A stretch of 64,000 nucleotides of DNA from a virus. Positions 7,247 to 60,946 of the stretch are shown here, in pieces. The notes under the pieces are model-generated. The model was not told the origin of the DNA. It saw only the letters and a list, made by a program, of their open reading frames with translations, and did no database searches. Each line of letters begins with the position of its first letter. Positions within the stretch are counted from its first letter, which is position 1. Where the stretch lies: positions 53,602-117,601 of the IMG/VR virus record IMGVR_UViG_3300027861_002706, one strand, 5' to 3'. Both the position numbers and the translations under genes were made by a program.

Positions 7247-7984
7247 TTAACTACTTCGATTATTCATTGCTGGTCTTTTAACTACTTGGATAACACCTTT
7301 ATCACATCCATCGTTCAATATTGCTTGCATACCATTTTGTAAATTTTTTCCTAAGGAGTTACTATTGCTGACATCTGCCGACTTAATTTGCTCAGATACT
7401 CCGATAGGAACTATACTCGTATGTCTAATATCTCCTGGATTTTTCCATGATATATCTAGTATAGTTATATGTGAAACATCGCTAGGTGCTCCAGTTCTTG
7501 CATTAGAAATCTCTAATTTGATAATAGGACTGTTTATAGGATTAGTAAAATCTATGTGGACATCACCAAAATAGCCCTTAGGCATTTTCCTTGTATAAGC
7601 ACTAGCCCAATTAGCTATATATAAACCAATAGCCCGATCAGTAGTCTCGTCAGAAGTTTCAATAGCATCTATCTCTGTCTGAGTGAGGAAGCCAGACTTA
7701 ACGTCTGACTTTAAAAATTCTATCTGATCGTTGATGCTACCCGATAGGCTATTTAGTTTATCCATTACCTTATTATATCGAGATCGCTCCATTATGACCA
7801 CATACTGTTGTGTTCCAGTAGTTATCTCGCCTTTTATATTAATGATATCTCCTATTACGGGAGTACTTGTATCAAGATAAGGACCCCTGTAAACAATAGC
7901 GTGCTCTATAAAGCTGCTATTATGCATACTGGGGTGATTTTTGGCATACTCAACTAGTTTGTTGCCCGGTGTACTTCTCGCCAT
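7247..7984 (-). CDS. Baseplate hub-associated protein, possible spike/OB-type (245 aa)
   Basis: Unrecognised by name. The N-terminal half has an apparent OB-like beta segment (STPVIGDIINIKGEITTGTQ), followed by helical residues 85-115. The C-terminal part ISWKNPGDIRHTSIVPIGVSEQ is beta-rich. The family could be a spike or lysozyme-less gp5-like protein of the hub complex, because it lies directly downstream of the giant hub gene (9-base gap) and upstream of the wedge genes. There is no catalytic lysozyme signature. The role is inferred from gene order. Confidence 0.5.
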   Translation of the reverse strand: MARSTPGNKLVEYAKNHPSMHNSSFIEHAIVYRGPYLDTSTPVIGDIINIKGEITTGTQQYVVIMERSRYNKVMDKLNSLSGSINDQIEFLKSDVKSGFLTQTEIDAIETSDETTDRAIGLYIANWASAYTRKMPKGYFGDVHIDFTNPINSPIIKLEISNARTGAPSDVSHITILDISWKNPGDIRHTSIVPIGVSEQIKSADVSNSNSLGKNLQNGMQAILNDGCDKGVIQVVKRPAMNNRSS

Positions 7985-7993
7985 CAGATTCGC

Positions 7994-15436: not shown

Positions 15437-15437
15437 A

Positions 15438-18400: not shown

Positions 18401-21095
18401 GTGCATTCCTGCCGAAAGAACCCATAGGTTCTTCCGCTCTTGTTCCTACCTCCGCTGCGAGAGATGCCATCATATATTGCTTACCTACATCGAGATTTTT
18501 AGTACCGATAACCCCCATTCTTGCGAGTGTCTGATTAAGCGAGCCTGCTTGTTCCCTTAATGCAGCCTCGGCTTGTTCTTGCGTATGAGCTGGTAACTGT
18601 TTTAATATCTCGTGGACATCAACTTCATGGAATGTCTTTTCTATTAGTTCCTTGAATAGAAGAGAATCTTTTCCTCCGGCGGCCTCATGTAGGTGCTTCA
18701 TGAACTGCTCGTTGGTTACACGTTCTAACTTGCTCCCCAGGCCGTGGATCTGTGTAGTTATCCCACTACCTATTATCTCTTGGTTAGAAGTTCCGCCCAT
18801 TACGTTTACTAATCGCTGAGTAGCAACTTCGCTCCCAGTCTCTGTGATAATATGTGCAAGGTTCCTGAGCAGTGTTTCGTTAAAGCCGAAGTCAAATCCC
18901 TCTGCAACTCCCTTCATTGCGTCTGAACTCCACCGGCCAGAACCGGTTTTCGTCCTATCCATATCCTTAATTCCCTTAACGGAAATTCCTAGATCTCCCA
19001 TTACAAAATGTTGTCCCCCAGATGAATCTATTCCTGTGAGCTGTCCTACGATAGCTTGCACTGCGGTAGGTCCAACAACCTGAGATGTACTAACCCTCTG
19101 GCTACCTACCATATGTCCTGCACTAACACTAGTACGTGCGGGTGCCCTTGTAGTCCTATGCGGCCCTTCCGCCATGATTAGTTCCAGCTGCCCAGTTCCA
19201 GGAATTAATCTATATCCGGTGACATATGTATGATCCGGATCCATTCCTCGCTGCTTAACAATATTCATCATATCGTTAGCATGCCTGAGGTCTTTCACCA
19301 TCACATCTTCAGATCGAGCCACCCCTTGTCCAATTACTGCTTTATCTATACCAGCAGGTTGTACGTCGAACCCTACCGCGGAAATAGATCTTCTAACTTT
19401 ACGGTCTGCTGTAACCTGCAAGTCATATTCAAGAGCTTTTAGCTGGATCGGACTACCAAAATTTACCTTTTGATCGCCTGCGACTTTGCTGGTCATCGAC
19501 TGTTGATGCTGTCCAATTGCATCGACTAAATCATTACGCAGGAATCCTAAAAATTCTTGAGTCCCATCCTCTAAAATCTGGAGCTCTTTGAGATTGATTT
19601 TATGGGATACGGTACGTCTAGACATACCAGTCATAGGATCAAGATCTAGCTGCTTCACTAGCTCGCTAGACATCACTACACCAGAGTCGCCAAAAATTGC
19701 TTTGTTTAATACGGGGTCTGCAAACTGTAGTCCTAACGCCCTTATTCCAAAAGCTACGTCGTCAGAGATGCTCGCACCCCCACGTGCACTTCTGATTTCG
19801 TGCTTTAATAATTCGTTAGTCTCACTACTGAAACCCATTATCTCTGCTACAGCTGTAGGCAATTCTTTAATATCTCTTAGGACAATCGGGGCCCTGGACA
19901 GATGAAATTGCCTGCCTTTTTCGAACGTTTCCTGTCCGGGTAATACAGTAAGGTTTTTAACATCCTCAATAGTTCCTTTGATATATACTCTCTGCTTACC
20001 CCTACTACCATCTGCGAGGTTGGGCCTGAATGCAGATTCTGCGCTTTGTGGAGTCCATGCAAAATTGAAATTCTTGAGTCTTTCACTAAGAGGATCAATA
20101 CCTAGCGCAGATGATCCTTCGGGGACTCCACGTTTAGTAATCCTCTCTATATGATCTGTTACGGCTTGTTGCGCAGTATTCAGCTCTCTGCGCATTTCTC
20201 CCGAATTAAATCTTTCTGCATGGGTATGAGGATCATATCCAGTAATCAGTATCTGCCTTAGTCTGTCTTCCTCTAGCATGAGTTTGAACAGGTCGGAATC
20301 CTGACTCACTTCTAGCATTATTTGGTTTCTGGCCCCGAGAAGATGCCTACCTAGCTTAGGCTGGCCAGAGTACGACATGGGGTCAATCATTCCTGCGCTA
20401 TTTTTAGTACGCATCTCGAACGGGAGTCTATTGTCGAATAAGTCCTCTGTAGCCCCAATCACTTGATTTATAGTCTTATTTAATTTGCTAAAATCAGACT
20501 GATCCTTCATTACTGTATTGATTTCTCGATATACTGTTTCAGAAAAACTTGTAGGTTTTGTCAGACGATCGTTTCCTCCGATAGTTCCAACACCAGCAGG
20601 AACGCTATATGTACTACCTCCTTTGAACATATACTCATTCGCGCTCTGGCTAACTCTCCCAGGAAAATCCGGATTCATATCATCTGCGAATAGAGGTATG
20701 TGCACAGCCTTTTTACCTTGGCCATGAGGAGTAAACACAAGTGAGCCACCCCTGTGAACTAGCGTGCCTTCATTGCTACCTGCTATACCTGTTATTAACT
20801 GGCTAAGTCCCTCGCTCTGGGAGCCAGTCTTATATACATCTGGTAAATTATCTATACTACTAATTGTTTTCCCAGGTAGACTCAACTTGACCTTGGAGAA
20901 CAGATCTTCTTGAGTGGTGCCTGTCGAGGCTCCTATGGCCAGTGCTGCTGCTAGGTTTGCTTTAGCGGTGTGGCTAATTCCACCACGCAGAGGAGGGGTT
21001 TCACCGAAATGAATATCGACTACATCTCTTTGAAATACCTTTATTGCATCTTGTCCCTCACTTGAGGCGGATCCAGGTGTGGGGGTGCTGGCCAT
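15438..21095 (-). CDS. Giant virion protein, possible degenerate RNA polymerase-like core (1885 aa)
   Basis: No confident family. The protein is long, mixed alpha/beta and probably packaged, given its place between the tape-measure position and the hub. At residues 1320-1324 it has D-L-D-K-D inside AEGDLDKDAINLFRL, resembling the DxDGD metal-binding loop of the RNA polymerase beta-prime double-psi barrel. Upstream, SGARMRL and VGMTEKAF (roughly 1210-1235) and VREPAAGGRQMF (about 1270) fall where phage single-chain polymerases have comparable strands. The central Gly is Lys here, so activity is uncertain. A hydrophobic segment lies near 1755. Bases 19778-19822 are the source-like copy of a 45-bp duplication. 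It could instead be a tape-measure or internal core protein. Confidence 0.6.
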   Translation of the reverse strand: MASTPTPGSASSEGQDAIKVFQRDVVDIHFGETPPLRGGISHTAKANLAAALAIGASTGTTQEDLFSKVKLSLPGKTISSIDNLPDVYKTGSQSEGLSQLITGIAGSNEGTLVHRGGSLVFTPHGQGKKAVHIPLFADDMNPDFPGRVSQSANEYMFKGGSTYSVPAGVGTIGGNDRLTKPTSFSETVYREINTVMKDQSDFSKLNKTINQVIGATEDLFDNRLPFEMRTKNSAGMIDPMSYSGQPKLGRHLLGARNQIMLEVSQDSDLFKLMLEEDRLRQILITGYDPHTHAERFNSGEMRRELNTAQQAVTDHIERITKRGVPEGSSALGIDPLSERLKNFNFAWTPQSAESAFRPNLADGSRGKQRVYIKGTIEDVKNLTVLPGQETFEKGRQFHLSRAPIVLRDIKELPTAVAEIMGFSSETNELLKHEIRSARGGASISDDVAFGIRALGLQFADPVLNKAIFGDSGVVMSSELVKQLDLDPMTGMSRRTVSHKINLKELQILEDGTQEFLGFLRNDLVDAIGQHQQSMTSKVAGDQKVNFGSPIQLKALEYDLQVTADRKVRRSISAVGFDVQPAGIDKAVIGQGVARSEDVMVKDLRHANDMMNIVKQRGMDPDHTYVTGYRLIPGTGQLELIMAEGPHRTTRAPARTSVSAGHMVGSQRVSTSQVVGPTAVQAIVGQLTGIDSSGGQHFVMGDLGISVKGIKDMDRTKTGSGRWSSDAMKGVAEGFDFGFNETLLRNLAHIITETGSEVATQRLVNVMGGTSNQEIIGSGITTQIHGLGSKLERVTNEQFMKHLHEAAGGKDSLLFKELIEKTFHEVDVHEILKQLPAHTQEQAEAALREQAGSLNQTLARMGVIGTKNLDVGKQYMMASLAAEVGTRAEEPMGSFGRNALSIKQRDLMMLAESVDFAHGQRMHPDRDPKTGELLKKRDGKYINPDTNQPYSNQRFHQKQISEKKGLIFNALSEANPAIFAKDHEMSLIYQQMRHFKETSFGFEALRKIGADGDLKTGDVSRLKFKGEGEAYGSGEIGPKRFRPKLAAGGIESEYGINQLRKRGASGKVNLEDIGKSLLGLVSSEGGVAKISDQAFLIQGEHGPMLVPSAKTMQFIEEQGFVRVSQGGRQFEKLADDAAAKLGSGQSAKVEAQSMYLDILESVETLRDSSADNRLAETSDIGKKLDKLYQVMAANTMAKQGLFYSSEIGAAGIQSGARMRLQTHSSLGKFQVGMTEKAFRSMHFTPGMDDGALDKLVEKAWAGKHYTTGVREPAAGGRQMFALQTVLLKDTAFASADIVDDFEFKHTAYLNNMLIEFAAEGDLDKDAINLFRLASMDDSTMRGIHQGQIEMMDGILSNLKGSPDNEMARSLGLAGQTSFNYGDVNKLISQTADMTSEATVRQHTFESLIKIAGHGHSTPIVEGHFRARSYVDYMVTQLIDLQASGEGQSLLRTNLEARLDDAGIDRLGKFLGKASGIFTESVAGAGGPTRTASTYHYTDARNLIKYMFLKKAAHGVSGQEPAELILNALKAGSSQARSDMDHGSMGFMYDLIEGRSGTKAGDLIDQVSNNLLRAAEIIEPGTDGLFRKLHEMEPQTLSILQKLSGSGNDEQMRQLAHNLAKRMMFIEVMAQELQVGTRGTGLGMPFEGVVRNLSSVIGGLVNDNVFGASGIASLTMADFQGLAAMDTSGAGLNEVLSAEFHETMTRMRQNNVNIADYGPDNARVGGASVSSNASRSGMLSGEFFQNISRTKFFKPAAAVIGGLAGIEAVRSTLDRFSPGNVPVSMYNSSGTLPPVPVMSTPNDPTFNPNAMPNTRIARITRSEGKRSRLNVSGKMNAPADFRGMTNQYALHNGYVPKIQGSFRSELNGTMARSEIATDLRDRMDSVF
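19778..19822. repeat. 45-bp direct repeat, copy inside the 1885-aa gene
   Basis: Identical for 45 consecutive bases to 27738-27782. Here it is in frame within the giant gene and encodes about TNELLKHEIRSARGG. Because the coding context is normal here, this copy looks like the source. Confidence 0.9.
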
Positions 21096-47140: not shown

Positions 47141-49314
47141 TACTCATCTCCCTTGTTGATATTTATATCTTCATCTATCACACATGTGGTATTTAACCGT
47201 ATATGTGGACCAGAAACATCTCTTTTGCTTACCGAAGCAATCGGCATAACTACTTCTTTCTCTAGATCAAGTGTTCCATCTTCGTTAATGCTATTATACA
47301 TAACTCTGATATTCTTCCTACCAGCCTTCTGTAACGTAGTCATGTATCCGTACTTATAAGCAAAGTCCGCGGTTTGGACTGTCATCATATCTAACTCAAC
47401 TTTTAATGCGTCAAAGATGCTAGACGCCTTAGCCGGGTCTAAGTCAAGTTTTACTTCATTATCTAAATCTATCTTCAACATTATCATAGCCTTACGATTG
47501 AGCTTTATCAACGGTATACGTATGTGCTTAGACAAAAATAGGCTGATATCGTCCTTAGATACTAGCTTATTGGTATGTATATCTTTGCGTGCTTCCTTTG
47601 CTCCGCTCTCTATTTCAGGCAATAAGTACTTTTTTGCATCAGACATCATTGCATCTGTTTTTAATATTAATATTTTCTTTATATCATTAGACCTAGTGGC
47701 CTTATTGTACTTGCCGTTTCTAGCGCTAAGGCCACAGATATCCTCGCACATTTCTGACCATGAGTAAGAGAACTGATTGAATAGCTCTTTCATCATCAGA
47801 CTATTCTGAGCAACTGATTTTTTAGTAGTGGCAGTACCATGCTGGTTAGTCGGGCGAGCTTTATTGGTGACGGTGTTGGCGGATCCTTGTGAACTGCCTG
47901 GGCCCTGTTCGTTCATTGCACCAATCTCGGCTAATGGCTTAGTATATAGCTCGTGGAAAGTATTCTTTCTATCTCCATCAGCATACGGTTCTCGATTGAG
48001 ATAGTCCGTTCTTAGCTCATCCTCTGTTATAGCATTCTGCATAAATAGCTGAATACCATGGTTCTGATGAGCTCTAGCCTCTTCTCTATCTATGTCTGGG
48101 AATCTCAGAGAGACCCGTACATCGCTGACTAGGTTAAATCCACCCTCTAATAGTATGATATCAACTATCTTGGCGGTGAACATTTCAGAAAATACATTCT
48201 GTATTTCTGAACATGCATCGACTAAATTCTTTGTCACTGTCTGTGCAGTAGCCTTATTCGCAGTATCGCCTCTGCCTAGGTCTATTCCAGATAACCTCAG
48301 ACCGCCAAGAACCCTACTTTCAAAGTGAGAGAGATAGGGTTCTAAATCTAATACCTGGCCTTCTGTGCCAAGCATGTTTATCTCTACTCTTTCAGAGGTG
48401 ACTAGCCCACCCTCTGGAGGTAATGCATCTACTTGTGCTCCAATAACATCTACCTCTGAGAGTGTCTGTCCATCTGGAGATGTTATATATCCAGCTGGCT
48501 TATCTTTTGAGCCTACCTTGGCATGGAATAGAGGGAATGTATGCTTGTGGGTTACTAGCTCGGCTAGTTCCTCTAGCCTTCTCAAAGCTCTGATGTCTTC
48601 AAGAACAGGCACTATATATGGTGTACCAAAGGTAAAGCCAGACTTTCTATCCAAATGGAAGTGTACAACGTCGGAAGCCCTGAACTTTCTAGTTTTCTCA
48701 GAGTCCCATATCTTTTGTTTCCACTCTACTGGCCTGCCAAAGTCATTCTTTTTTACTGCCATACTAGTAGGATCTGCTGGATATAATCCAGAGATAGGCT
48801 GCATCGTTTTACCGAACATCCTAATAGGAGAACCACTAGACCTAAGAGGGTCTCTCTTTATTACAAGGATAGCATTGCCGTAGGCAATCAAGTTAGTTAA
48901 AAGCTCTCTTACAATAGCAGAGATAGGTTCGCCGGTGATAAGCTCTATCTCTTCAAATCGTTTTTTTACATACGCTATAGCTTCTTTATCTTTACCGTGC
49001 AGATGCCATCCTTCTTTCATGGATAGCTCTCTGTGCCTTCTAACAGAAGCAGCAAAGAATGATTCTACATCTAGCGTCTTGCCTATCTCTCCAAGGTTAT
49101 ACATTGGGGTGATATAGTTACCATCTCCGCCTAAGCTGGGATAGCCTCTTGCCGTTAAGCTCGTTTTATAGTAGAGCGTAGATACAGCTTGTCGCGGAGA
49201 TTCCTTAACAGTAGACTCTACGCTAGAGGGGTTAGTCTTGCGGACAAGCCTAAGATCCTCTTGCTCTGGTTTAGTAGTAGAGAACACTGACGCTATTCTA
49301 CCGAGAAGACCCAT
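47140..49314 (-). CDS. Portal protein (724 aa)
   Basis: Dodecameric portal through which DNA enters and leaves. Its length (724) is in the long range. Typical features: SVRRHRELSMKEGWHLHG near residue 90, SAIVRELLTNLIAYGNAILVIKRDP (wing region), then LYPADPTSMAVKKNDFGRPVEWK and FRASDVVHFHLDRKSGFTFGTP YIVPVLEDIRAL (clip and stem region). The late part has a helical crown and basic C-terminal tail. It is flanked by an unknown gene upstream and the protease gene downstream, in standard head order. Its start overlaps the preceding gene by 17 bases. Confidence 0.8.
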   Translation of the reverse strand: MGLLGRIASVFSTTKPEQEDLRLVRKTNPSSVESTVKESPRQAVSTLYYKTSLTARGYPSLGGDGNYITPMYNLGEIGKTLDVESFFAASVRRHRELSMKEGWHLHGKDKEAIAYVKKRFEEIELITGEPISAIVRELLTNLIAYGNAILVIKRDPLRSSGSPIRMFGKTMQPISGLYPADPTSMAVKKNDFGRPVEWKQKIWDSEKTRKFRASDVVHFHLDRKSGFTFGTPYIVPVLEDIRALRRLEELAELVTHKHTFPLFHAKVGSKDKPAGYITSPDGQTLSEVDVIGAQVDALPPEGGLVTSERVEINMLGTEGQVLDLEPYLSHFESRVLGGLRLSGIDLGRGDTANKATAQTVTKNLVDACSEIQNVFSEMFTAKIVDIILLEGGFNLVSDVRVSLRFPDIDREEARAHQNHGIQLFMQNAITEDELRTDYLNREPYADGDRKNTFHELYTKPLAEIGAMNEQGPGSSQGSANTVTNKARPTNQHGTATTKKSVAQNSLMMKELFNQFSYSWSEMCEDICGLSARNGKYNKATRSNDIKKILILKTDAMMSDAKKYLLPEIESGAKEARKDIHTNKLVSKDDISLFLSKHIRIPLIKLNRKAMIMLKIDLDNEVKLDLDPAKASSIFDALKVELDMMTVQTADFAYKYGYMTTLQKAGRKNIRVMYNSINEDGTLDLEKEVVMPIASVSKRDVSGPHIRLNTTCVIDEDININKGDE

Positions 49315-51211
49315 CTGATTCCTTTAACATCTTTTTAATCTCTTCGTCGCTAATTTCCATTTTACAAGTCTTGAGTATATTCCTTATCACCTCTTCTGAT
49401 GTTTCTGGCTGATTAAACTTATCAATAGCCGGAATAACCATAGTTTCATCTAGTCCAAACAGCTCAGATTTTTGACTTATTACTATTGGTTCATTATCTG
49501 AGAAGTACCTTTCTCGTAAATCATCAGGAATATCAATTGTATACTGATTAGCAGGTATATCTAACCCACCTACAATATCATCTATGATATTGTCTGTTAT
49601 ATCGTCAGATAAATCAAAGCACTCTTCGAGAGATTGAGCTAATATAGAGTTTAATATCATCTGCATTTCATTCACTCGCCTCACTTGCCATTTGACCTGA
49701 GCCGTATGTACATCCCTCCAGATTTCGACCGAAGCCTTCTTCTGCTCCTTGCTTTCATAGGAATTCAGTTTACTCGCTGTTTTTTCTAATTGATTAAGTA
49801 TAGACTTAAGCATATCATGGAATAGCTTACATTTCATATATAACGGTTTTACAACTGTTACATCCATCATACGTACCCAACGCTCAAGTAATTTACGTAT
49901 TATATCCATAGTCTTATGTTTTATATACATAACAACTGCATAATCGAATCTAGTTCCAGATAAAACTGCGGATGTCTTTCTAGCATATTTAGCAGATATG
50001 TCAACCGCTAATGTTTTTGATATCGCCTTTAAAAATATTATAATCATTTTTATCACTTTTTTATCAAACTTCTGCTTAGCCATTATACGCAATAAACAAC
50101 AGATTTGATCTTTTGTAGCGATATACGCACTAGACTGAGCTACGTTATTAATCAGCATTCTTTGCTCTTTATTATTAAACCTTATAATCGTAGCGGTGTG
50201 ACCACACATCCCAGTGAAATTATTTTTATATGCAGTTAAAAACTCAGTCTTTAAAAAACTAGGTATGGCATCATCTTCTTTAATTGATGGTATCTGATCA
50301 TGAAGATTCATATTTATATTAACTTCACTAGAATACGTAGGATAGTATTTATATACATCAACAGAAGAATTTCTGGATTTTCTAAGACTGATGTAATTTA
50401 CCCATAAGTCATATTTAGGATCGGATGATGCATATATATAATTAATGACATAATCTAAAATATTCTTGTAGTCATTTTCACCCACCTTTTCCATAGCCAA
50501 GGACTCTAAACGATTAAATTGAAACTGCTCAGCTGGAGTCGTGGAAACTGAGCTAGACTCAGATCTTATTCCTCTTATTAGTATCTTGTTTAATACATCT
50601 ATCGCAGAGGCAAAAGCAATAGCAATAACTAATTTCATTGCACCATACGCAGCTCCTTCTGGGTGTTCTGATGGCGGAGATATTTTAAGTATGTCTGGCA
50701 CATTAAATATATCTTGAAATTTATGTATCGCATAATTCAATAGATATACTGAATCGAACATAGCTAAATCATCATCAGATAGCCCAAACAATATTTTATT
50801 TTTATAATTTCGTTGTGTAACTGAGTCTAACCTAAGATTGCCTGTAGTTGACTCCATTATCTTAAACGCATAATTCAATTTAACTTGTTCAAACTTCTTA
50901 ACTGCAGTAAGGAATAAATGAAAACTTATTCTTGCTCCATCTGCTTCTGATGGATCTTTTCTTGCTACAGCGGCTCTGACATCTTGCATAATAGAATCAA
51001 CAGGGACATGTGTCGCCCTACATTTTTTATCTAATAAGTTAAGCAATCTATTAGATAGTTCTATGTTGTCTTTTACTTCAGAAAATATTTCATGGATTTC
51101 TTCTTCGTTGGCATTTTCTTTGTGGATGGGAGGAGCAGGACGTGCTGTATTCTCGTCGAATAGGGTTCTATCCTTTTCAAATTCCCGGGGTTTTTTAGAG
51201 AATATACCCAT
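49298..51211 (-). CDS. Helical protein of unknown function between terminase and portal (637 aa)
   Basis: Not recognised. The sequence is nearly all alpha helix and more AT-rich than its neighbours; its third and fourth quarters contain LRIMAKQKFDKKVIKMIIIFLKAISK and WVRMMDVTVVKPLYMKCKLFHDML, strongly basic helices with hydrophobic faces. The N-terminus resembles a portal-like start (MGIFSKKPREFEKDR), and the C-terminus is acidic (KTCKMEISDEEIKKMLKESDG). In ordinary phages portal follows terminase directly, so this is an insertion or a lineage-specific head protein. It could be a minor head or internal core protein. Confidence 0.5.
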   Translation of the reverse strand: MGIFSKKPREFEKDRTLFDENTARPAPPIHKENANEEEIHEIFSEVKDNIELSNRLLNLLDKKCRATHVPVDSIMQDVRAAVARKDPSEADGARISFHLFLTAVKKFEQVKLNYAFKIMESTTGNLRLDSVTQRNYKNKILFGLSDDDLAMFDSVYLLNYAIHKFQDIFNVPDILKISPPSEHPEGAAYGAMKLVIAIAFASAIDVLNKILIRGIRSESSSVSTTPAEQFQFNRLESLAMEKVGENDYKNILDYVINYIYASSDPKYDLWVNYISLRKSRNSSVDVYKYYPTYSSEVNINMNLHDQIPSIKEDDAIPSFLKTEFLTAYKNNFTGMCGHTATIIRFNNKEQRMLINNVAQSSAYIATKDQICCLLRIMAKQKFDKKVIKMIIIFLKAISKTLAVDISAKYARKTSAVLSGTRFDYAVVMYIKHKTMDIIRKLLERWVRMMDVTVVKPLYMKCKLFHDMLKSILNQLEKTASKLNSYESKEQKKASVEIWRDVHTAQVKWQVRRVNEMQMILNSILAQSLEECFDLSDDITDNIIDDIVGGLDIPANQYTIDIPDDLRERYFSDNEPIVISQKSELFGLDETMVIPAIDKFNQPETSEEVIRNILKTCKMEISDEEIKKMLKESDGSSR

Positions 51212-53250
51212 CAGATGTTACCTCGACCAAACCGGTTGCCCCTAGGAGTGTTACCGTGATATCTTGTTCTACCTTGAACTGAATCTCCTCTAGATCTATT
51301 AGTAGCCTGCCTCCTAGCGACATACACTCCTATGTCGTTTCCTCCTACTAATGTTTCTTTATCTTCATCTGTCCTTTTCTCTGGCTTTAGATCTTTTTGC
51401 ATTTTCTTACTAAATTTCTTCGCCTCTTCTAAATCTATTTGACGCTCAGTGATATTACTCAACTCAGGGAATGGTGAGTCGTTATCATGGTCACTGCCTA
51501 CACCAATAGAATAGGCAATATCCATAACGTGTTCTATCTTTTTTATATCACTAAACTCTAAAATATGACCCATAATACATAGCATCCATGCGGTAACAGT
51601 GTGCTCATAGTCTTGAGAATACGTAGGTACGCCGCTTGGACTATACTTAACTATCTTGAATGCTCTTATCTGTTGGACGATACCTATGTTGGCGAAGGGT
51701 ATCTCACTAGGTACGATCCTTGTGGTCGTATCTTCATCTACAGGCATTAATACCTGCTTCATCTCCATTGTTCGACATGACGCATCTACCATAAACTGTT
51801 TTACTGGTTTCTTGATAGGCATACCGCTGACTGGATCGGTTATCTCTATATTAGAGTTCATAGTCATGGGCTTGACACGCTCTTTATAGTTGGTGTGTTC
51901 GTTAGGATAATCCATGTCATATTTCCACATCATCTCAACTTGGACGTGTCCATAGCCAGCATCTACATAGATGTATGCAGTTTGATTACCCCATACTTTG
52001 TCAAGCTCCATTATTTTCTTAATAGCTTCTATCTGTTGAAATTCCTGAGTTCGTATTATATGTTTGTCTACTGTTTTATACATGAGTCGACCATCTACGT
52101 TCATGGCCTCAGTAACAACTATGTGCGTACCTGTAGTCTTACCCCAGTCTACTCCTATAACATACTTAGACTCTGCGTGCGGGATGCAATCTTCATAAGT
52201 GTAGTCAGCCAGGCACGCGTTAACGTCCTCGCTTCTAAACACACCCTCAGCTTCGTCACCAAACTCAGCAAGAAACTCTCGTTCGTATCCAGTCTTTGAG
52301 TAGTTCTGCTTAAACATATGATCTACTTTTGGAGTCCAACTAGGAGATTCCGCAGATATAAACCAGAACTCCTTAAAGCCTTGACTCTTGTCACAACACC
52401 AGTTATATAGTTTTTTACGTATTCCAGTAGGCGTAGATGAGACGATGAGTTCGCAAGTCGGGTGAGAAGCCATTATCGCCATGATCACTTCGATGTCGCT
52501 GTCATTGATATAATCAACTTCGTCCATGATAATAAAATCTGCGTCCTGACCACGAACCTTATCGGATTTTGCGCCCGAATGTGCACCAGAAGACCAGCCT
52601 CGAATAACTCCACCTGAGCTGAATTCAATCATTTGTGGGTTGAGGACATTCCTCTTAATCATGCCTGGCATATTTAGTGTAGAGGATCTGCCTATAAAAT
52701 CACGCATAGTATCAAATATCTTTGCAACTTGGGGCTGATATGGCGCAAGCACAAGTATTTCAAACTGCCTATCAGTAAGGCCGCCGTTAGTAAACAATTT
52801 CCAAAGAGCAAGAACACTCATCGCTTCAGTTTTGCCGACACGACGTCCTGCGCGAATGGCTTTAAACTGAGATGAACATCGCATGACCTCTTTCTGATAC
52901 CATCTAGCCTCCCAGTCAAATTCAAACTTAGCCCAAGCAACTGGATCTTGTAGCATTTTATAGTTCTCGAACTCTTCGTCAGATAAGCCTTGATTTTTCA
53001 TCTTCTTAGCTAGCTGTCGATAATCGCCGTCACAGGCAGGTATAAATGGTTCGGAAGTAAAGCCCTTGCTATGCATATCTTGATAGTAGTCTATACACTT
53101 TCTGCAGAAATGACAATCTCGACCAAGCATAGGCTTATAGTCGGATCCCTTATAGTCATCCATTGGCCTATATTTTTCACCAAAATCAATGCCTATTTTA
53201 ATGGGCTTTTCGCCCTCAATCCTAATCTCATTCTTCTTTTTATCAGGCAT
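51211..53250 (-). CDS. Terminase large subunit (679 aa)
   Basis: ATP-driven DNA packaging motor with a nuclease. Walker A is GRRVGKT (residues 135-141) and Walker B FIIMDEVDY (239-247); a coupling motif SSTPTG (271-276) follows. The nuclease is RNase-H-like: GVDWGKTTG (Asp368), YVDAGYGHV (Asp430) and DYEHTVTAW (about residue 569). The N-terminus has a zinc-ribbon-like CHFCRKC (46-52). The gene overlaps the 637-aa gene by one base and the upstream 236-aa gene by a few bases. Confidence 0.9.
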   Translation of the reverse strand: MPDKKKNEIRIEGEKPIKIGIDFGEKYRPMDDYKGSDYKPMLGRDCHFCRKCIDYYQDMHSKGFTSEPFIPACDGDYRQLAKKMKNQGLSDEEFENYKMLQDPVAWAKFEFDWEARWYQKEVMRCSSQFKAIRAGRRVGKTEAMSVLALWKLFTNGGLTDRQFEILVLAPYQPQVAKIFDTMRDFIGRSSTLNMPGMIKRNVLNPQMIEFSSGGVIRGWSSGAHSGAKSDKVRGQDADFIIMDEVDYINDSDIEVIMAIMASHPTCELIVSSTPTGIRKKLYNWCCDKSQGFKEFWFISAESPSWTPKVDHMFKQNYSKTGYEREFLAEFGDEAEGVFRSEDVNACLADYTYEDCIPHAESKYVIGVDWGKTTGTHIVVTEAMNVDGRLMYKTVDKHIIRTQEFQQIEAIKKIMELDKVWGNQTAYIYVDAGYGHVQVEMMWKYDMDYPNEHTNYKERVKPMTMNSNIEITDPVSGMPIKKPVKQFMVDASCRTMEMKQVLMPVDEDTTTRIVPSEIPFANIGIVQQIRAFKIVKYSPSGVPTYSQDYEHTVTAWMLCIMGHILEFSDIKKIEHVMDIAYSIGVGSDHDNDSPFPELSNITERQIDLEEAKKFSKKMQKDLKPEKRTDEDKETLVGGNDIGVYVARRQATNRSRGDSVQGRTRYHGNTPRGNRFGRGNI

Positions 53251-53953
53251 GCATGAACGTCGCTTCGTTGCCCATCGCTGCTCTAGTATTCATTTGTGAG
53301 TTATGTATGGCGGCCATGGCAGTTTGCCTTTGTGTAAAACTAGCCCTAGTGTCAGCGAATCCTTCGCCAAGATCATACTCTATGCCCTCTTTGATATTGC
53401 TTCTCTCATATGAGTATGAGTGTAACCCCTGAATACCTGCACTCAACGCAGAAAAACCCATACCAAAGAGATCATTTATTAGCCATGCTGAGGATAGTAT
53501 TCTTAATCCCCCTCCAATTCCCATCCTAATCGCAGCTCCGCTTAGTTTACCCGCCTGCTCACCAGCAAATTTCCCAGCGCTCCCCTTCGTGTATTCTCTG
53601 ATGAATTGTTCTTCTGGCGCTTGATATAATCCAAAGCTCCTGAGTGAGCCCCATCTCCCCTTAGGCTTCCAGCTAGGGAGAGTGCTGGCTCTACCTCCTA
53701 GGAAACTGTCAAGAGCAGTTGTTTCAGCGCCTTGTTGGAACATGTAAGGTGTTACTCCGGGGATCATCCCCATTAGAGGTCTACCTCCTGTACCCATACC
53801 TATTCTACCCATGAGGCCTGCGCCAAGACTTTCTCCAGCAGTGGCTATGGCGACATCCGCAATCATATTGCCTATACCAAAGTTCTCATGGTCAGAGGCC
53901 GTCGATATTAGTTGAAACCCATCAGAGCTTATAGTCGGATTATATCCCTGCAT
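53243..53953 (-). CDS. Gly/Ala-rich virion or membrane-type protein (236 aa)
   Basis: Unrecognised. It is rich in Gly and small hydrophobic residues: IADVAIATAGESLGAGLMGRIGMGTGG, AGKLSGAAIRMGIGGGLRILSSAWLINDLFGMGFSALSAGIQGL (about residues 130-185), which may insert in membranes. The C-terminus is polar (AAIHNSQMNTRAAMGNEATFMHA). It lies one base after the 377-aa gene and overlaps the terminase start by 8 bases. It is probably a minor internal virion protein working with its two neighbours. Function unknown. Confidence 0.4.
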   Translation of the reverse strand: MQGYNPTISSDGFQLISTASDHENFGIGNMIADVAIATAGESLGAGLMGRIGMGTGGRPLMGMIPGVTPYMFQQGAETTALDSFLGGRASTLPSWKPKGRWGSLRSFGLYQAPEEQFIREYTKGSAGKFAGEQAGKLSGAAIRMGIGGGLRILSSAWLINDLFGMGFSALSAGIQGLHSYSYERSNIKEGIEYDLGEGFADTRASFTQRQTAMAAIHNSQMNTRAAMGNEATFMHA

Positions 53954-55102: not shown

Positions 55103-55678
55103 CTAGAACGGTCCAAAATTATTGCCGGATCTGATAGCATTTACAGCTGCTAGTCCGCCATAGCCTACACCAAACATCTTCGCCGCTCCACCAGATCTGA
55201 CCGCAGCTGCCGTTATCCCAGCATGTGCTCCAAATGAAGCTCCTGCGCCTATCGCCCGGCTTACAAAATTATCTTCTCCAAGAGCCATAGGAGCTATTCC
55301 AAATGCTGCTACCGATCCAGCGGCTATTGATCTAGTCGTTGCTCTGGACCTATTTCCTCTTTCGTCGATAAAACCACCCAGGACATTAGGCTGGCCTTCT
55401 TCCCCGGGTGTTACTTTCATCTTTTTGCCCGCGAAGTACTGAGAGAGAGACATACGCTGCTCTTCCCCATAGTGCGAAGCTCCTGATCTCGTAGTCCTCG
55501 TGTCCCTCGTTACTAACTCTTTAATAGCAGATACATTACGAACAATATCGGGATCTGTTGCTCCGTTTGCCTGACCTGCATGGTGCAACTTTACTGGATT
55601 CATATCCGATATAAGATCGGTTAAAAAGTTGCCTAACTTCTTACCAACATAGTTATCTATTATTCCGGGCATACCCAT
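55103..55678 (-). CDS. Small Gly/Ala-rich protein (191 aa)
   Basis: Unnamed. Start chosen as ATG 55678: AAGGA lies 7 bases upstream and just after the stop (TAG 55692-55694) of the large fusion gene; an upstream in-frame ATG at 55741 would overlap it by 50 bases and has no ribosome site. Features: NVSAIKELVTRDTRTTRSGASHYGEEQ, then TTRSIAAGSVAAFGIAPMALGE and SFGAHAGITAAAVRSGGAAKMFGVGYGGLAAV (hydrophobic, C-terminal). A possible membrane or virion protein acting with the neighbouring Gly/Ala-rich genes. Confidence 0.4.
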   Translation of the reverse strand: MGMPGIIDNYVGKKLGNFLTDLISDMNPVKLHHAGQANGATDPDIVRNVSAIKELVTRDTRTTRSGASHYGEEQRMSLSQYFAGKKMKVTPGEEGQPNVLGGFIDERGNRSRATTRSIAAGSVAAFGIAPMALGEDNFVSRAIGAGASFGAHAGITAAAVRSGGAAKMFGVGYGGLAAVNAIRSGNNFGPF

Positions 55679-55691
55679 AAGGCTATCCTTA

Positions 55692-58600
55692 CTACCAGTT
55701 TCCTTTTCTTCTCGATCCATTTGCGTGTGTGGTAGGTCCATTATATATCATAGACCTATTACTATGCATCGATGCATTCCTGCTTCCTTGGTCTCTTATT
55801 CCAGATCCGCTAGTATATTTCAATTGATTAGTAGAATTGACTTTTTTACCTTGCCTCCACAAGGCTTTTTTTATCAAGGTGCCATAATCTCCAAAACTCT
55901 TGATGGCGGAGTAATCTGGACCGGGCAGCATTCCCGAAGGCACTCCACTTCCTTGACCAACAGCATTTTGCATATATTTACTTTGAGTAGCTCTGCCAAT
56001 AGCATCTGACGCGGCCTGATACATGGAATAGTTTTTAATCTCATGGCCTTGTCTCCTAAGATCTTTCATCATAGCTTTTACGGCACGAGAATCTTCTACT
56101 ACCTTACTCAGATTGACATTAATCTTAAAGTATTTTACTTTAGTCGGATCATTTCTCGCGGCGTAACCAATTAAAGCATATGGCTGTTTTAATGCATATG
56201 CATAAAAGTTAGCCTGAGAAACGTGCGCCTTCTTAGGGTACTTAAGTTCTTTAAGCGCATCAAAATCTGCAACAGATTTTATTTCTAAAGGAACACCAGA
56301 TTTTAGGACTAGATCGATATGACCCATTATATCTAGTTCAGAATCATGGACGACATGCTCGCTGGCCTGAGCGATACCTCTTCTCAAGTACTCCGATTCT
56401 ATTACCTTGTGTACGAGGGTACCCTTCTCGGAGGATTTTGTGTAGTCATCAAAAGAAGATCTTCCCAAGAGTATATCTTTTAGCCTATCTCCGCGATAGC
56501 CCAGCATAGACGATCTAATCGTATTACTACCATACCCGCTACCATATTTTATCTCGGCTATAGCCTGAGAAGCAAAGTAGTCATTTCCAGAGCCAAAGGA
56601 GTGTAGAAGCGTATCTCCTGAAGGAGACATTCCCTCCAGGGTGTTATACTTGCTCCCTGGATGTTTTATATCACCATTTCTATTACCCAATAATACTAAT
56701 CCTGAAAGAGTGAATATTCCGGCAGCTAAAACACCTCCCTTTCTCTTTATGCCACCCATAGTCTCACCGAACTGACTTCTGGCGATATCTCCTATCGTCT
56801 CTCCTGTGGCTCTACTTGCCGTAGAGTGTGGTTCGGGGATATATCGTGGGAACCCGCCAGACCAGCGTTCTGTATCTCCTGCTAGAATAATCTGGTCTAA
56901 TGTATTTTCGGCGCTTCTTAGCTTGGAGTCATTTACCATATTCCTGATAAACTCATGCATCTCGGTTTGCGCACCATGCGGATTTGATAAATGTTTATTA
57001 AACATATCAAATATGTAAGACATCTGTTGGTCAATGTCGATCGAAGCGTCATGCGCTATTTGCTTTACAAACTTGTCATCTAGCGCTATCACATCTGATA
57101 TTAACCCATGTAAGCTATCTCCACCTTTATTCGTGATATACTCAGCTTTACTGATTCCAGGATGATGTGTTGTGATATACGCATCTGTTGCGAACATCAG
57201 GCTTCGGCCAATTCCGCCAGCCGCGGTTAGAGAGTTTCCGCCCTTTAGCTCAAACCCGGTAGCATAGTTCTGTAAAAATTTTAGCGTATCACGTTCCAGG
57301 CTGCCGCTCTTTGTCCATTTCAAATCACTCTCATAGGAGGGACCCATTATGCTTGATCCGCCCCCTGCTCCGAATATTCTGTCTAGCGTTTTTTCGGCAA
57401 TATCGAGATGTCTTATTCCAGCTGTACTTCTTCTTATTACATCTAAGCTTGTCTGACCAGAAGATCTGTCTAGCTCTGTAAGATCTCTAACCATAGTCGC
57501 AGCTTGCTTAACTATCTTCTCTTCATCGGTACTTGCTGTTCGTATGTTCTCCGAGGGGAAAGCCCTCTCTAAAAAATCCCCCTGGATTTTGTTAAGATCT
57601 TGACTAGTATAGTCTCTAACATTCTTAGCAAGCGAGTGTAGCCCGCCCCTATTCCCCCTGCTGCCGTGGTTTAGGTACTGAGTCGTCTCACCAGTCTCTA
57701 TACCCTGACGTATTAGACTCTTGATCTCATCTCTGTTATGCACGCCTTTTGCCAGATTCTCCCGTATCTGCTCCTGATTTAGATTACTTACATTGAAGTT
57801 CTCATCTCTAACCATCATCCAAAACTGCACATCCTTCATTTTGTCAGAAGCATCGGCTAGATGTATAACATCATTCGCCATTGTGCCTGAAGAAAAAGGA
57901 TCATGATAACCAGTACGATCAATACCAAATACAGTTTTGAATCTTATCGCGTACTCTCCGCCTTTTTGACGGATCGCCGCATCAGTATGACTTGTTAATG
58001 TATCGATATGTCTGGCGTATGCACCCATATCAAACTTCATGTTCCAAGCAACTGCAGCCTTTTTCCCTGTTCGATTGTTTAGACTCTCTGCCTCAGCTAA
58101 AAACCGGTCTATCATATCCGTGCTAGACTCTACGCTAACTTGACTTACCTTAGCTCCATGCCTTTCCATGAATAATTGTTTACCAAACCCTATATTTAAT
58201 GGTGAACCTATCTTTGCTACTGCTACTGCATAGGCGCCAGAAGGGGGATTATTCATCAGATTGGCTGTAATTTTTCTGAGTACTTCTGGATCTCTTACCT
58301 GAAATTTACCACGCTGTGCCTCTATCTCCTCCCTGACTGCCTTGGCTATATCTGATGTATCCTTAAATCCCCCCCCCTCTGCTTCCTTATAGAATTGGGC
58401 TAACTGTTCATTTCCAATTACTTTATGTGGCAGAACTTCCCCATCAGGGGCAGCAGGTCTCTCGTATTCTATTTTTATTTTAGTTGAGTCTATGCCAGTG
58501 CCAGCCAGATCTAGTTTGTCTAAGTGAATATTTGTTTTCTGATCTGTCGAGGTTCTATTACCTGCCCCATCTATGCTTATGATCTCTGATGCTGACTGTG

Positions 58601-60182
58601 TTATCTGGCCTGGGCGATTTCTCTCAGCCGGTGTATCACCCCTAGTGCTGCCGCTATCTCGAATCTCATGTATGACACCCGAACTGGTTATTGCATGAGT
58701 CTTGCTTCCTCCAGGAAGCTTCGTGGTTTCAGTGTCAAGATGCATTTCAGTACTAAATGGAGATCTAACAGTCGTACCGGGGGAATATTTAGATTCAGCA
58801 GGAAATATAGTACCAACAGGAGAGCCAGGAGTAGCGGAGGTAGGAGCAGCAGGAGTAGGAATAGCACCAGCAGCGGCGGGAGTAGGAGCAGGAGTAGGAA
58901 TAGCACCAGCGGGAGCAGCGGGAGTAGGAATAGCACCAGCAGCGGCGGGAGTAGGAGCAGGAGTAGGAATAGCACCAGCGGGAGCAGCGGGAGTGGGAAT
59001 AGCAGTAGCGGGAGCGGATGGAGGCACCCCTAAAGCAGCACTACGGTTAGCCTTAAATGCGGCATCTGCTTCTGCCCTAGTAACTTCCTCTCCTACGGGG
59101 AAGTAGAGGTCAGAGTCGGACTTTCCAGAAATGTAATCATATTTGATTCGAGAAAGCTTTGATAGCTGCTCATCTCCATACTCGGTCACCTGAATATATG
59201 AAGGCCTACTACCTTTTACTACTTGGCCTCCTTCTACTATGCGAGATCGAGGATCTCCTTTGGTCTCATTATTGAAGGGTAAATTTGCAGGCGCATCATC
59301 AATTACCATGGCTACATTTTTATGCTTACGTATCTCTTCTACTTTTCTTGAAGCCCCTTCTTCTGTTCCTCCGTATATTTTCTGAGTAAAGAGATCCTCA
59401 AGCCCATGATGCTTTAAGTTTGCCTCTGTCATCTCCTGCATGTGTGGCGAGCGACTAGTATATAAATTTACCTCGAATCCCTTACTCTTCCAGAATTCTA
59501 GATTATGAACAAGACCTTTATCTACGGGAATCTCACTAAGCCCAGGAGTCCCCTTCATCTCACGAGTATAGTCTGCAAGAGCATCTACAATATTGCCGGG
59601 GTGTCTCTTCTGAGCCGCTTCGAATACTTCGTCACCTGCAGAAGAGAATAATGTGCTATCTAGATCTACGAATATTTTGGGCTTATTCCTACTTTTCCAT
59701 CTTTGAAAACCTTGTTTTATCTGAGGAAAATTTTCATTAATAATTGCGGCCCCTACCGGGAGGCTACCCCCGGGTATTACCGCAGCAGCTGCCACATATG
59801 CTGCGGCCTTTTTCCAGCCCTTCAGTTTTTTCATCTTTCTAATCGCGGCTTGGACAGCACTCTCCGGCCTCTGAGGGGAAGCAGCGGGAGTAGGAATAGC
59901 ACCAGCAGTAGCAGTAGTAGTAGGAGTACGAGCAGGAGCGGGAGTGTGAATAGCAGGAGCACGAGCAGGAGAGGGAGTGTGAATAGCAGGAGCACGAGCA
60001 GGAGAGGGAGTGTGAGGTATGGGCCGTTTCGTAGAGGAGGGATTTGAGCCCGAGAGGATTGGCTTCCTTGCTGCCGTTGCCTCTGCCGCTGCCTTTTCCG
60101 CTGCTCTCTTTTCTGCTGCTAGCTTTGCTGCTGCCTTTGCTGCTGGAGTATTACGGTTTCCTCTGGGATTTATCTTTGCCAT
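55692..60182 (-). CDS. HAD / DEDD-like exonuclease / PD-(D/E)XK-like nuclease fusion (1496 aa)
   Basis: A multi-enzyme fusion. Residues 1-40 are basic, Ala-rich; 55-105 and 390-445 are Pro/Ala linkers encoded by tandem DNA repeats. HAD-like phosphatase: FVDLDSTLF (D173, D175), YTSR (241-244), K280, VIDDAPAN (D295, D296). DEDD-exonuclease-like: LDTETT (D483, E485), WNMKFDMG (N714, D718), with a possible third site near D886; spacing is wide. A hydrophobic segment lies at 1149-1166. PD-(D/E)XK-like: H1258, GHIDLVL (D1290), LEIKS (E1300, K1302), Q1323 in HVSQANFYAYAL, as in Cas4/RecB-type nucleases. It heads the head genes; probably a nucleic-acid-processing virion or ejected protein. Activities are inferred from motifs. 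Confidence 0.65.
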   Translation of the reverse strand: MAKINPRGNRNTPAAKAAAKLAAEKRAAEKAAAEATAARKPILSGSNPSSTKRPIPHTPSPARAPAIHTPSPARAPAIHTPAPARTPTTTATAGAIPTPAASPQRPESAVQAAIRKMKKLKGWKKAAAYVAAAAVIPGGSLPVGAAIINENFPQIKQGFQRWKSRNKPKIFVDLDSTLFSSAGDEVFEAAQKRHPGNIVDALADYTREMKGTPGLSEIPVDKGLVHNLEFWKSKGFEVNLYTSRSPHMQEMTEANLKHHGLEDLFTQKIYGGTEEGASRKVEEIRKHKNVAMVIDDAPANLPFNNETKGDPRSRIVEGGQVVKGSRPSYIQVTEYGDEQLSKLSRIKYDYISGKSDSDLYFPVGEEVTRAEADAAFKANRSAALGVPPSAPATAIPTPAAPAGAIPTPAPTPAAAGAIPTPAAPAGAIPTPAPTPAAAGAIPTPAAPTSATPGSPVGTIFPAESKYSPGTTVRSPFSTEMHLDTETTKLPGGSKTHAITSSGVIHEIRDSGSTRGDTPAERNRPGQITQSASEIISIDGAGNRTSTDQKTNIHLDKLDLAGTGIDSTKIKIEYERPAAPDGEVLPHKVIGNEQLAQFYKEAEGGGFKDTSDIAKAVREEIEAQRGKFQVRDPEVLRKITANLMNNPPSGAYAVAVAKIGSPLNIGFGKQLFMERHGAKVSQVSVESSTDMIDRFLAEAESLNNRTGKKAAVAWNMKFDMGAYARHIDTLTSHTDAAIRQKGGEYAIRFKTVFGIDRTGYHDPFSSGTMANDVIHLADASDKMKDVQFWMMVRDENFNVSNLNQEQIRENLAKGVHNRDEIKSLIRQGIETGETTQYLNHGSRGNRGGLHSLAKNVRDYTSQDLNKIQGDFLERAFPSENIRTASTDEEKIVKQAATMVRDLTELDRSSGQTSLDVIRRSTAGIRHLDIAEKTLDRIFGAGGGSSIMGPSYESDLKWTKSGSLERDTLKFLQNYATGFELKGGNSLTAAGGIGRSLMFATDAYITTHHPGISKAEYITNKGGDSLHGLISDVIALDDKFVKQIAHDASIDIDQQMSYIFDMFNKHLSNPHGAQTEMHEFIRNMVNDSKLRSAENTLDQIILAGDTERWSGGFPRYIPEPHSTASRATGETIGDIARSQFGETMGGIKRKGGVLAAGIFTLSGLVLLGNRNGDIKHPGSKYNTLEGMSPSGDTLLHSFGSGNDYFASQAIAEIKYGSGYGSNTIRSSMLGYRGDRLKDILLGRSSFDDYTKSSEKGTLVHKVIESEYLRRGIAQASEHVVHDSELDIMGHIDLVLKSGVPLEIKSVADFDALKELKYPKKAHVSQANFYAYALKQPYALIGYAARNDPTKVKYFKINVNLSKVVEDSRAVKAMMKDLRRQGHEIKNYSMYQAASDAIGRATQSKYMQNAVGQGSGVPSGMLPGPDYSAIKSFGDYGTLIKKALWRQGKKVNSTNQLKYTSGSGIRDQGSRNASMHSNRSMIYNGPTTHANGSRRKGNW
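58865..59002. repeat. Two near-perfect 69-bp repeats in a Pro/Ala linker
   Basis: 58865-58933 and 58934-59002 differ at one visible base. Each encodes 23 residues of the type IPTPAAPAGAIPTPAPTPAA in the 1496-aa protein; a partial copy lies on the low-coordinate side. Linker length probably varies between related phages. Confidence 0.85.
59940..60017. repeat. 33-bp repeats in the N-terminal linker
   Basis: Two and a partial third copy of a 33-bp unit encode HTPSPARAPAI in the N-terminal Pro/Ala linker of the 1496-aa protein, just before the HAD-like region. The same gene holds the 69-bp repeats. Confidence 0.75.
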
Positions 60183-60946
60183 TATTCACCAAACACTTCT
60201 GGCGCAATGGTCTTAGAATCGTTATGCATCTCAATCTCTGTAGCTGTAATATTGCCGTCAGAATCTTGAGAAGCCATCCGTATCTTCTTGGCCTTTTCCA
60301 TGAGATTAGCTGCGACTTTTGAAGGATCAGCATATCCTTTGGAAGCTGCATCTGCTTTGGACTTCCTCGTAGTGAGAAGCTCACGCATAAGCCTTAGTTT
60401 TGTTTTAACCAGTTTTTCGTAGAATTCGGCGGCCTTGGAACTCTCATTGCTATAGAAAGGCTGGCCTGCTGGGCTATACCCGCTTATAACTCTTCGTTCT
60501 ATCTTTGGGTCCATGGCAAGTTGCATGGCGGCTCTTGCCTCTAACGTCATCTGGAATACTATCTGGTCTACTAGCATCCTGTCATATGCGGAAGAAGGAT
60601 CTTCTGGATTTATGCCTGCCGCCTCGCTGAACTGATCTGTCCACTGTCTTATCTGGTAGGACTCTACAGGACAATCACCTCCAAATGGACGATCTATCTT
60701 ATTGCGTACCAGAGGGCATTTCTCAAAGTATGGGCACTGCTCATCTCTACATACCATGGGGCCTGCCATGGGAGCAAAGCCAAACTTAACAGATTCTGTA
60801 TATCTGGCAAGATTTCCTCTTTGGACTTCTGTGAGAGCAGTTTCTTCCTTGCCAGTCAGGCTATTGTCATTTATTACTACTTCAGGTAAGTTCTCGGCGT
60901 TTTCAGGAACAGTAACCCCAGGACCGAAGAGCTCGTTTGAATTCAT
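60182..60946 (-). CDS. Cys-containing protein of unknown function, possibly small terminase-like (254 aa)
   Basis: Residues 1-40 are acidic and disordered. A Cys cluster follows: VCRDEQCPYFEKCPLVRN and DCPVE (C66, C71, C77, C92), which could bind zinc or iron-sulfur. The C-terminal part is helical and basic (KLVKTKLRLMRELLTTRKSKADAASKG). Location before the fusion and, further on, the terminase would suit a packaging recognition subunit, but I see no clear helix-turn-helix. It overlaps the 81-aa gene by 44 bases and shares one base with the 1496-aa gene. Confidence 0.45.
   Translation of the reverse strand: MNSNELFGPGVTVPENAENLPEVVINDNSLTGKEETALTEVQRGNLARYTESVKFGFAPMAGPMVCRDEQCPYFEKCPLVRNKIDRPFGGDCPVESYQIRQWTDQFSEAAGINPEDPSSAYDRMLVDQIVFQMTLEARAAMQLAMDPKIERRVISGYSPAGQPFYSNESSKAAEFYEKLVKTKLRLMRELLTTRKSKADAASKGYADPSKVAANLMEKAKKIRMASQDSDGNITATEIEMHNDSKTIAPEVFGE

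Follow-up and report, generated by a model that had tools for sequence, protein, structure and literature searches.

Why would a virus encode an enzyme fusion built from nucleases among the genes for its packaging machinery? The question is raised by one open reading frame in the window, a 64,000-nucleotide stretch of the virus record IMGVR_UViG_3300027861_002706 (positions 53,602 to 117,601). This frame is uninterrupted from ATG to stop and encodes 1,496 amino acids. The initial annotation saw in the chain three enzyme classes, joined by Pro/Ala linkers and one hydrophobic segment, and proposed that it might be a packaged or ejected protein that processes DNA. The residues that it named for the HAD, DEDD, and PD-(D/E)XK sets are all at the numbers that it gave. 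The three enzyme classes are correct, with both nuclease active sites preserved intact in relatives, and the case for the fusion is stronger than first put. The linkers and the hydrophobic segment are also real, but there is a further Ala-rich hydrophobic stretch (residues 130 to 148) besides the C-terminal one (residues 1149 to 1167). Cysteine is absent from the whole chain. The layout of the protein and of the genes around it is given in Table 1.

Table 1. Features of the fusion gene and its neighbors in the window
Feature	Position	Strand	Basis or remark
Conserved Cys-rich protein, left flank of cassette	60182..60946	-	Overlaps fusion start as TAATG
Fusion ORF (cassette gene 1), HAD + DEDDh + hydrophobic segment + PD-(D/E)XK	55692..60182	-	1,496 aa; homologues
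Residues 1-160: Lys/Ala-rich start, Pro/Ala repeats, hydrophobic stretch 130-148	59703..60182	-	
Residues 165-330: HAD phosphatase domain	59193..59690	-	In some homologues only
Residues 375-470: Pro/Ala repeat linker	58773..59060	-	TPAPAGAIP-type repeats
Residues 475-1075: DEDDh exonuclease domain, large insertions	56958..58760	-	Motifs; positional counterparts in L050 and ME3
Residues 1149-1167: hydrophobic segment GGVLAAGIFTLSGLVLLGN	56682..56738	-	
Residues 1170-1245: strongly conserved collar	56448..56675	-	SPSG...FGSG...SMLGYRG
Residues 1245-1400: RecB/Cas4-type PD-(D/E)XK nuclease	55983..56450	-	Profile, fold, conserved residues
Residues 1405-1496: basic C-terminal tail	55692..55970	-	Net charge +11 in last 60 residues
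Cassette gene 2: small Gly/Ala-rich protein, end ...NNFGPF	55103..55678	-	Homology; ORF listed from 55741, homologues begin at M22
Cassette gene 3: basic Gly/Ala-rich protein with hydrophobic segment	53955..55088	-	
Cassette gene 4: Gly/Ala-rich protein, conserved C-terminus TRASFTQRQTAMAAIHNSQMNTRAAMGNEA	53243..53953	-	
Terminase large subunit (TerL), conserved right flank of cassette	51211..53250	-	
637-aa protein between TerL and portal (second variable gene)	49298..51211	-	

The PD-(D/E)XK residues of the fusion are H1258, D1290, E1300-x-K1302, and Q1323xxxY1327. Among eight homologues that are about 20 to 42% identical, no variation was seen at D1290, E1300, K1302, or Q1323. The region matched phrog_1706 (E = 1.4e-13) and the Cas4 models of PADLOC (about 1e-6). 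Its predicted structure (pLDDT of about 60 to 89 over most of the domain) gave Foldseek matches at probability 1.00 to SSO0001 (a Cas4), lambda exonuclease, MGME1, and LHK-Exo. These matches bear out the Cas4/RecB-like set of residues proposed from the window. The likeness to Cas4, RecB, lambda exonuclease, and MGME1 lies in the fold and in the active-site residues (D, ExK, and QxxxY). However, TIGR00372 scored 27 bits against a cut-off of 65. Cas4 has a four-cysteine Fe-S cluster, which the fusion, having no cysteines, must lack. True Cas4 identity was therefore rejected. The fusion also differs in that its nuclease is joined to a DEDDh domain.

The HAD domain is weak by sequence (Pfam, 0.0016). 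The fold search on the predicted model (pLDDT of about 60 to 88 across the core) matched AphA-type acid phosphatases at probability 1.00, which upheld the placement of a HAD domain in residues 165 to 330. The DxDST, Thr, Lys, and Asp motifs are all present (D173, D175, T242, K280, and D295/D296), as is a Rossmann-like core. The corresponding region of the homologue in contig L009 matched the polynucleotide kinase family phrog_415 (9e-6). The HAD domain is not conserved across the lineage. It was seen in the window, L006, and L009 only; L008 and L018 have the L006 allele, and the N terminus is missing from L012. A BFVD fold match, A7KUR9_2 (965 aa, probability 1.00), was also obtained and may derive from phage 0305phi8-36.

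The DEDDh motif residues are D483/E485, N714 and D718 (W713-N714...D718), and H1044/D1049. They are invariant among nine distinct, diverse homologues of about 20 to 42% identity, with DxE readable in eight because L012 is truncated. In the alignment of these nine, residues 470 to 1149 have only 11 invariant columns (D483, E485, R514, L662, W713, N714, D718, G947, G982, H1044, and D1049), and six of the 11 are DEDDh residues in the correct order and spacing. The ordered DxE / NxxxD / HxxxxD pattern never arose when 11 positions were drawn at random 300,000 times. Exonuclease-like motifs had been noticed earlier, but the range assigned to them, residues 475 to 900, was too short. The domain extends to about residue 1075, and the third motif, H1044/D1049, had been overlooked.

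Catalytic residues missing across homologues had been named as evidence that would count against the enzymes. The opposite was seen, with both the DEDDh and the PD-(D/E)XK residues invariant. This bears on whether the fusion could serve chiefly as a structural protein of an ejection tube, its enzyme domains having decayed. The large insertions in the DEDD domain and the low-complexity linkers would suit such a protein, but the catalytic residues rank among the best-conserved positions, and we regard decay as highly improbable.

The DEDD region of the window protein had no profile or fold match to known DEDDh members. HHalign of this region against E. coli DnaQ, ExoI, ExoX, and RNase T gave nothing significant, and PDB profile searches with the fusion gave no usable match. 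Weak PDB matches of a profile of residues 470 to 1440 were mostly to helical designs and were set aside as composition matches. Long insertions are probably the reason that no profile detects the domain. The structure model of the region is also poor, with mostly low pLDDT. Therefore, the DEDDh assignment rests on the motifs and on positional counterparts in more distant phages (see below).

The fusion had been placed at the head of the structural genes, but it is the second gene of the run; the Cys-rich gene is first. A class II RNR gene adjoins the run and is followed immediately by a 14-bp terminator-like hairpin (61202-61169). Together with the TAATG overlap, the hairpin indicates that the fusion appears to be part of the late structural run. 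A replication or recombination enzyme whose gene is merely located in the structural operon would have domain types like these, which are typical of replication and repair, and it might well have an RNR gene next door. However, the hairpin separates that gene from the fusion run, the linkage to TerL is preserved in very distant relatives, and a hydrophobic segment is present. In addition, the same phage has a separate phrog_1706 (Cas4-like) nuclease adjoining its primase-helicase (contig L002, 7477-8436), about 23% identical to the PD-(D/E)XK domain of the fusion. The fusion is therefore neither the sole nuclease of this kind nor the replication copy. This makes a replication role quite unlikely and favors the reading of the fusion as a packaged or ejected protein.

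Other features of the virus were noted. L002 has a cluster of nucleotide-sugar epimerase, glycosyltransferase, and aminotransferase genes at 8695-18813 (8.7 to 18.8 kb of the virus record, G000), possibly for glycan or DNA modification. In the Cys-rich protein, C71, C77, and C92 are present in all aligned rows and one further cysteine in most. Its gene precedes the fusion locus in all relatives, Bacillus phage KLEB27-3 included, and its position suggests a small-terminase-like or Fe-S/Zn protein. The product of cassette gene 4 has the C-terminal motif TRxSxTQRQxAMxAIHNSxxNxRAAxGNEA. This motif is common to L030, L031, L048, L050, and KLEB27-3 gp009, was recognized by eye in ME3_12, and may be a virion-targeting signal.

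Searches for relatives by tblastn with the fusion or its PD-(D/E)XK region found no match in 50,697 phage records, and single-sequence scans of viral and genome contigs for the fusion found none either. Relatives were recovered with TerL and alignment queries, which placed homologues beside TerL on IMG/VR contigs. A nuclease-alignment search of genome contigs found no relatives and hence gave no host or prophage clue. The homologues are 1,795 (L006), 1,516 (L009), 999 (L013), 1,067 (L029), 905 (L030), 1,190 (L031), and 929 (L048) amino acids long; in L012 and L018, the end of the contig truncates the homologue. Where the N terminus is intact, the order is Cys-rich gene, fusion, small Gly/Ala-rich proteins, TerL, variable protein, and portal. 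The protease and MCP genes follow the portal in relatives whose contigs reach far enough. This order is preserved down to TerL identities of 45 to 51%, and the fusion gene is always clustered just upstream of TerL. The lineage is distantly related to phages ME3 and KLEB27-3.

TerL ORFs of 984 and 1,061 aa (L033, 5296-8250; L030, 12937-16122) have an insert that splits the ATPase domain, in the manner of an intein. A 177- to 179-aa ORF with recurring sequence features lies just before TerL in L030, L031, and L048, and an HNH-endonuclease-like ORF is inserted between cassette genes 2 and 3 in L031 (11645-12178).

The enzyme domains are not a fixed set. L048 has an N-terminal DUF4406/nucleoside 2-deoxyribosyltransferase-like domain (Pfam, 1.2e-11; PHROG, 4.6e-16) and is without the PD-(D/E)XK nuclease. 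L013 and L030 have neither HAD nor DUF4406. L050, with a TerL 34% identical, encodes in the same place a 711-aa DEDDh protein (phrog_192, 4e-8; PADLOC DEDDh, 1e-5) in which hydrophobic stretches towards the C terminus were seen by eye. The same place in Acinetobacter phage vB_AbaM_ME3, two genes before TerL, is occupied by ME3_11 (AND75172.1, "hypothetical protein"), with a weak phrog_192 match (E = 5e-5). ME3_11 resembles the fusion in its DEDD-like N-terminal domain and in a C-terminal hydrophobic stretch, which was read by eye and is below the 19-residue Kyte-Doolittle threshold. It differs in being only 529 aa long, without HAD or PD-(D/E)XK, and its similarity is positional and in motifs, with no direct match. 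KLEB27-3 has only small, mostly Gly-rich proteins at this place. The L050 and ME3 counterparts keep a DEDDh or DEDD-like domain and hydrophobic stretches while the other domains come and go. Therefore, DEDDh plus the hydrophobic segment is the common core, and the HAD, DUF4406-like, and PD-(D/E)XK domains are plug-ins. By the same threshold, the hydrophobic segment is called in the window, L006, and L013 and is sub-threshold in several other homologues.

Comparison of the window with L006, L008, and L009 revealed a sharply bounded variable block. TerL, the portal (where present), and the Cys-rich protein are 98 to 100% identical, whereas the fusions are about 35 to 51% identical (35 to 37% over the full alignment and 41 to 44% in the best-aligned part) and the three genes after it 35 to 59%. 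On the left, this four-gene block is bounded precisely by the start codon of the fusion; on the right, identity increases along the 3' end of gene 53243 and reaches its full level at TerL. Within the fusion, the PD-(D/E)XK domain varies least, at 70 to 74%. The 637-aa protein is 65 to 66% identical between the window and other alleles and 99% between L008 and L009, so its alleles assort independently of the cassette. Gene 44524 is either 72% or 98% identical. These two genes vary separately and thus lie outside the block. Among the genes compared, only the putative tail-fiber/baseplate genes are about as variable as the cassette. They form a second hypervariable region (7247-21095), with 36 to 43% identity between viruses with near-identical head genes.

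The fusion also changes quickly between close relatives. Between the near-identical L013 and L016, 10 of its 999 codons have changed, compared with 1 of 2,817 in six neighboring genes (Fisher P = 1e-5). Changed codons between L006 and L008 are partly clustered in a linker and may reflect alignment. Nonsynonymous changes prevail between close alleles, but not significantly beyond neutral. Therefore, we claim fast diversification and not positive selection.

This variability bears on the main rival explanation, which is that the fusion is a packaging or head-completion nuclease and not an effector, produced along with TerL to trim or debranch DNA at the portal while packaging proceeds, as T4 gp4 or endonuclease VII would. 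In every case, only a few genes separate the fusion from TerL and portal, and all belong to one tight run. T4 gp4-type nucleases are TnsA-like virion nucleases of the REase fold, encoded with head and packaging genes, and the nuclease activity of T4 gp4 is required for packaging (PMC7824862). In ME3, the gene immediately preceding the DEDD gene encodes a "head completion protein" like T4 gp4; a counterpart of that nuclease was sought in the viruses studied here, with no match in a search run without a positive control. Set against this, fusions at 35 to 51% identity beside a TerL and portal at 98 to 100% are hard to square with a close-fitting motor part. The hydrophobic segment and the swapped metabolic domains (HAD and DUF4406) are unexpected in a packaging nuclease, and L048 has lost the PD-(D/E)XK domain. 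We judge this role unlikely.

The cassette might instead be a weapon of phage against phage, with variable nuclease alleles and neighboring specificity or immunity partners exchanged among competing relatives. The sharp allelic block between nearly identical flanks would fit, as would the observation that, between close relatives, changes occur in both the fusion and gene 53955 and not in TerL. However, variation within the fusion is lowest in the PD-(D/E)XK part, no immunity protein was identified, and host-driven selection explains the block equally well. A weapon of this kind seems improbable.

Two known groups of proteins resemble the fusion more closely in overall design. Podovirus ejection proteins (T7 gp14/15/16 and P22 gp7/16/20) are encoded in sets and are mosaic, with membrane-spanning segments and swappable enzyme domains (PMC8954989). 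The fusion differs in belonging to a phage with a contractile-tail sheath gene, in carrying nucleases and a phosphatase and not a peptidoglycan hydrolase, and in that its packaging is putative. Phage polyvalent proteins are located among late virion genes (Iyer et al. 2017, PMC5512222). They combine several unrelated enzyme domains in a long chain and occur in portal-terminase phages. The fusion likewise has at least two disparate activities in one polypeptide (HAD, DEDDh, and PD-(D/E)XK) and a late virion gene location, with TerL, portal, protease, and MCP nearby in relatives. However, no Pfam, PHROG, NCBIfam, or PADLOC match in the fusion was to a domain of the published polyvalent network (MPTase, ART, ArdC, PBECR, etc.), and no zincin peptidase, ART, MuF, or helicase-methylase domain was detected. 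We therefore call the fusion polyvalent-like and not a member of that network. Its domain set appears new to the polyvalent-protein paper, since DnaQ, DEDD, and REase, like the term transmembrane, are absent from the main text of PMC5512222; earlier notice in subscription journals is possible. The initial annotation held that such nucleases do not normally lie among packaging genes. This is qualified by precedents in the T4 gp4-type nuclease (PMC7824862) and in injected effector domains (PMC5512222).

The linkage to TerL, the hydrophobic segment, the basic tail, the Gly/Ala-rich neighbors, the domain swapping, and the hypervariability all match ejection and polyvalent proteins. Of the readings considered, a packaged or ejected DNA-processing protein, as first proposed, is the best supported by these features. 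With its domains, active-site residues, conserved locus, swapped modules, and hypervariable alleles, the fusion has about an even chance of being a virion-carried, ejected, membrane-associated, polyvalent-like protein that processes DNA ends, where packaging, ejection, membrane insertion, and substrate are what we infer. It would be one of four ejection-type proteins encoded in the cassette just before TerL. Its conserved core would be the DEDDh exonuclease joined to the hydrophobic segment, and accessory enzymes (the RecB/Cas4-type nuclease, the HAD phosphatase, or the DUF4406/deoxyribosyltransferase-like domain) would be gained or lost. Once ejected, it might be located at the membrane of the host, where it would resect the ends of DNA. 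The PD-(D/E)XK and DEDDh domains would act as exonucleases and the HAD domain would remove terminal or nucleotide phosphates, with host DNA or rival elements as the likely targets.

Several points count against ejection. The well-studied ejection proteins are podovirus proteins, whereas this phage has a contractile-tail sheath gene. The hydrophobic segment falls below threshold in several homologues, and the HAD domain is not conserved. The DEDD region is without a significant match to E. coli DEDDh profiles and its model is poor.

A broader and more tentative reading, which we consider possible but doubtful, extends to a lineage of large phages with kinship to ME3. These phages would carry in the virion a membrane-anchored DEDDh exonuclease with plug-in modules (RecB/Cas4-type, phosphatase, or nucleoside-modifying). 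Ejected early, this exonuclease would attack the DNA of the host or of rivals, and its four-gene cassette would be exchanged as alleles between otherwise near-identical phages. If so, nuclease machines would join the enzymes thought to be delivered with phage DNA. The uncharacterized ME3_11, from a phage cultured on a laboratory host, would gain a predicted function, and an allele-exchange hot spot would lie beside the packaging genes.
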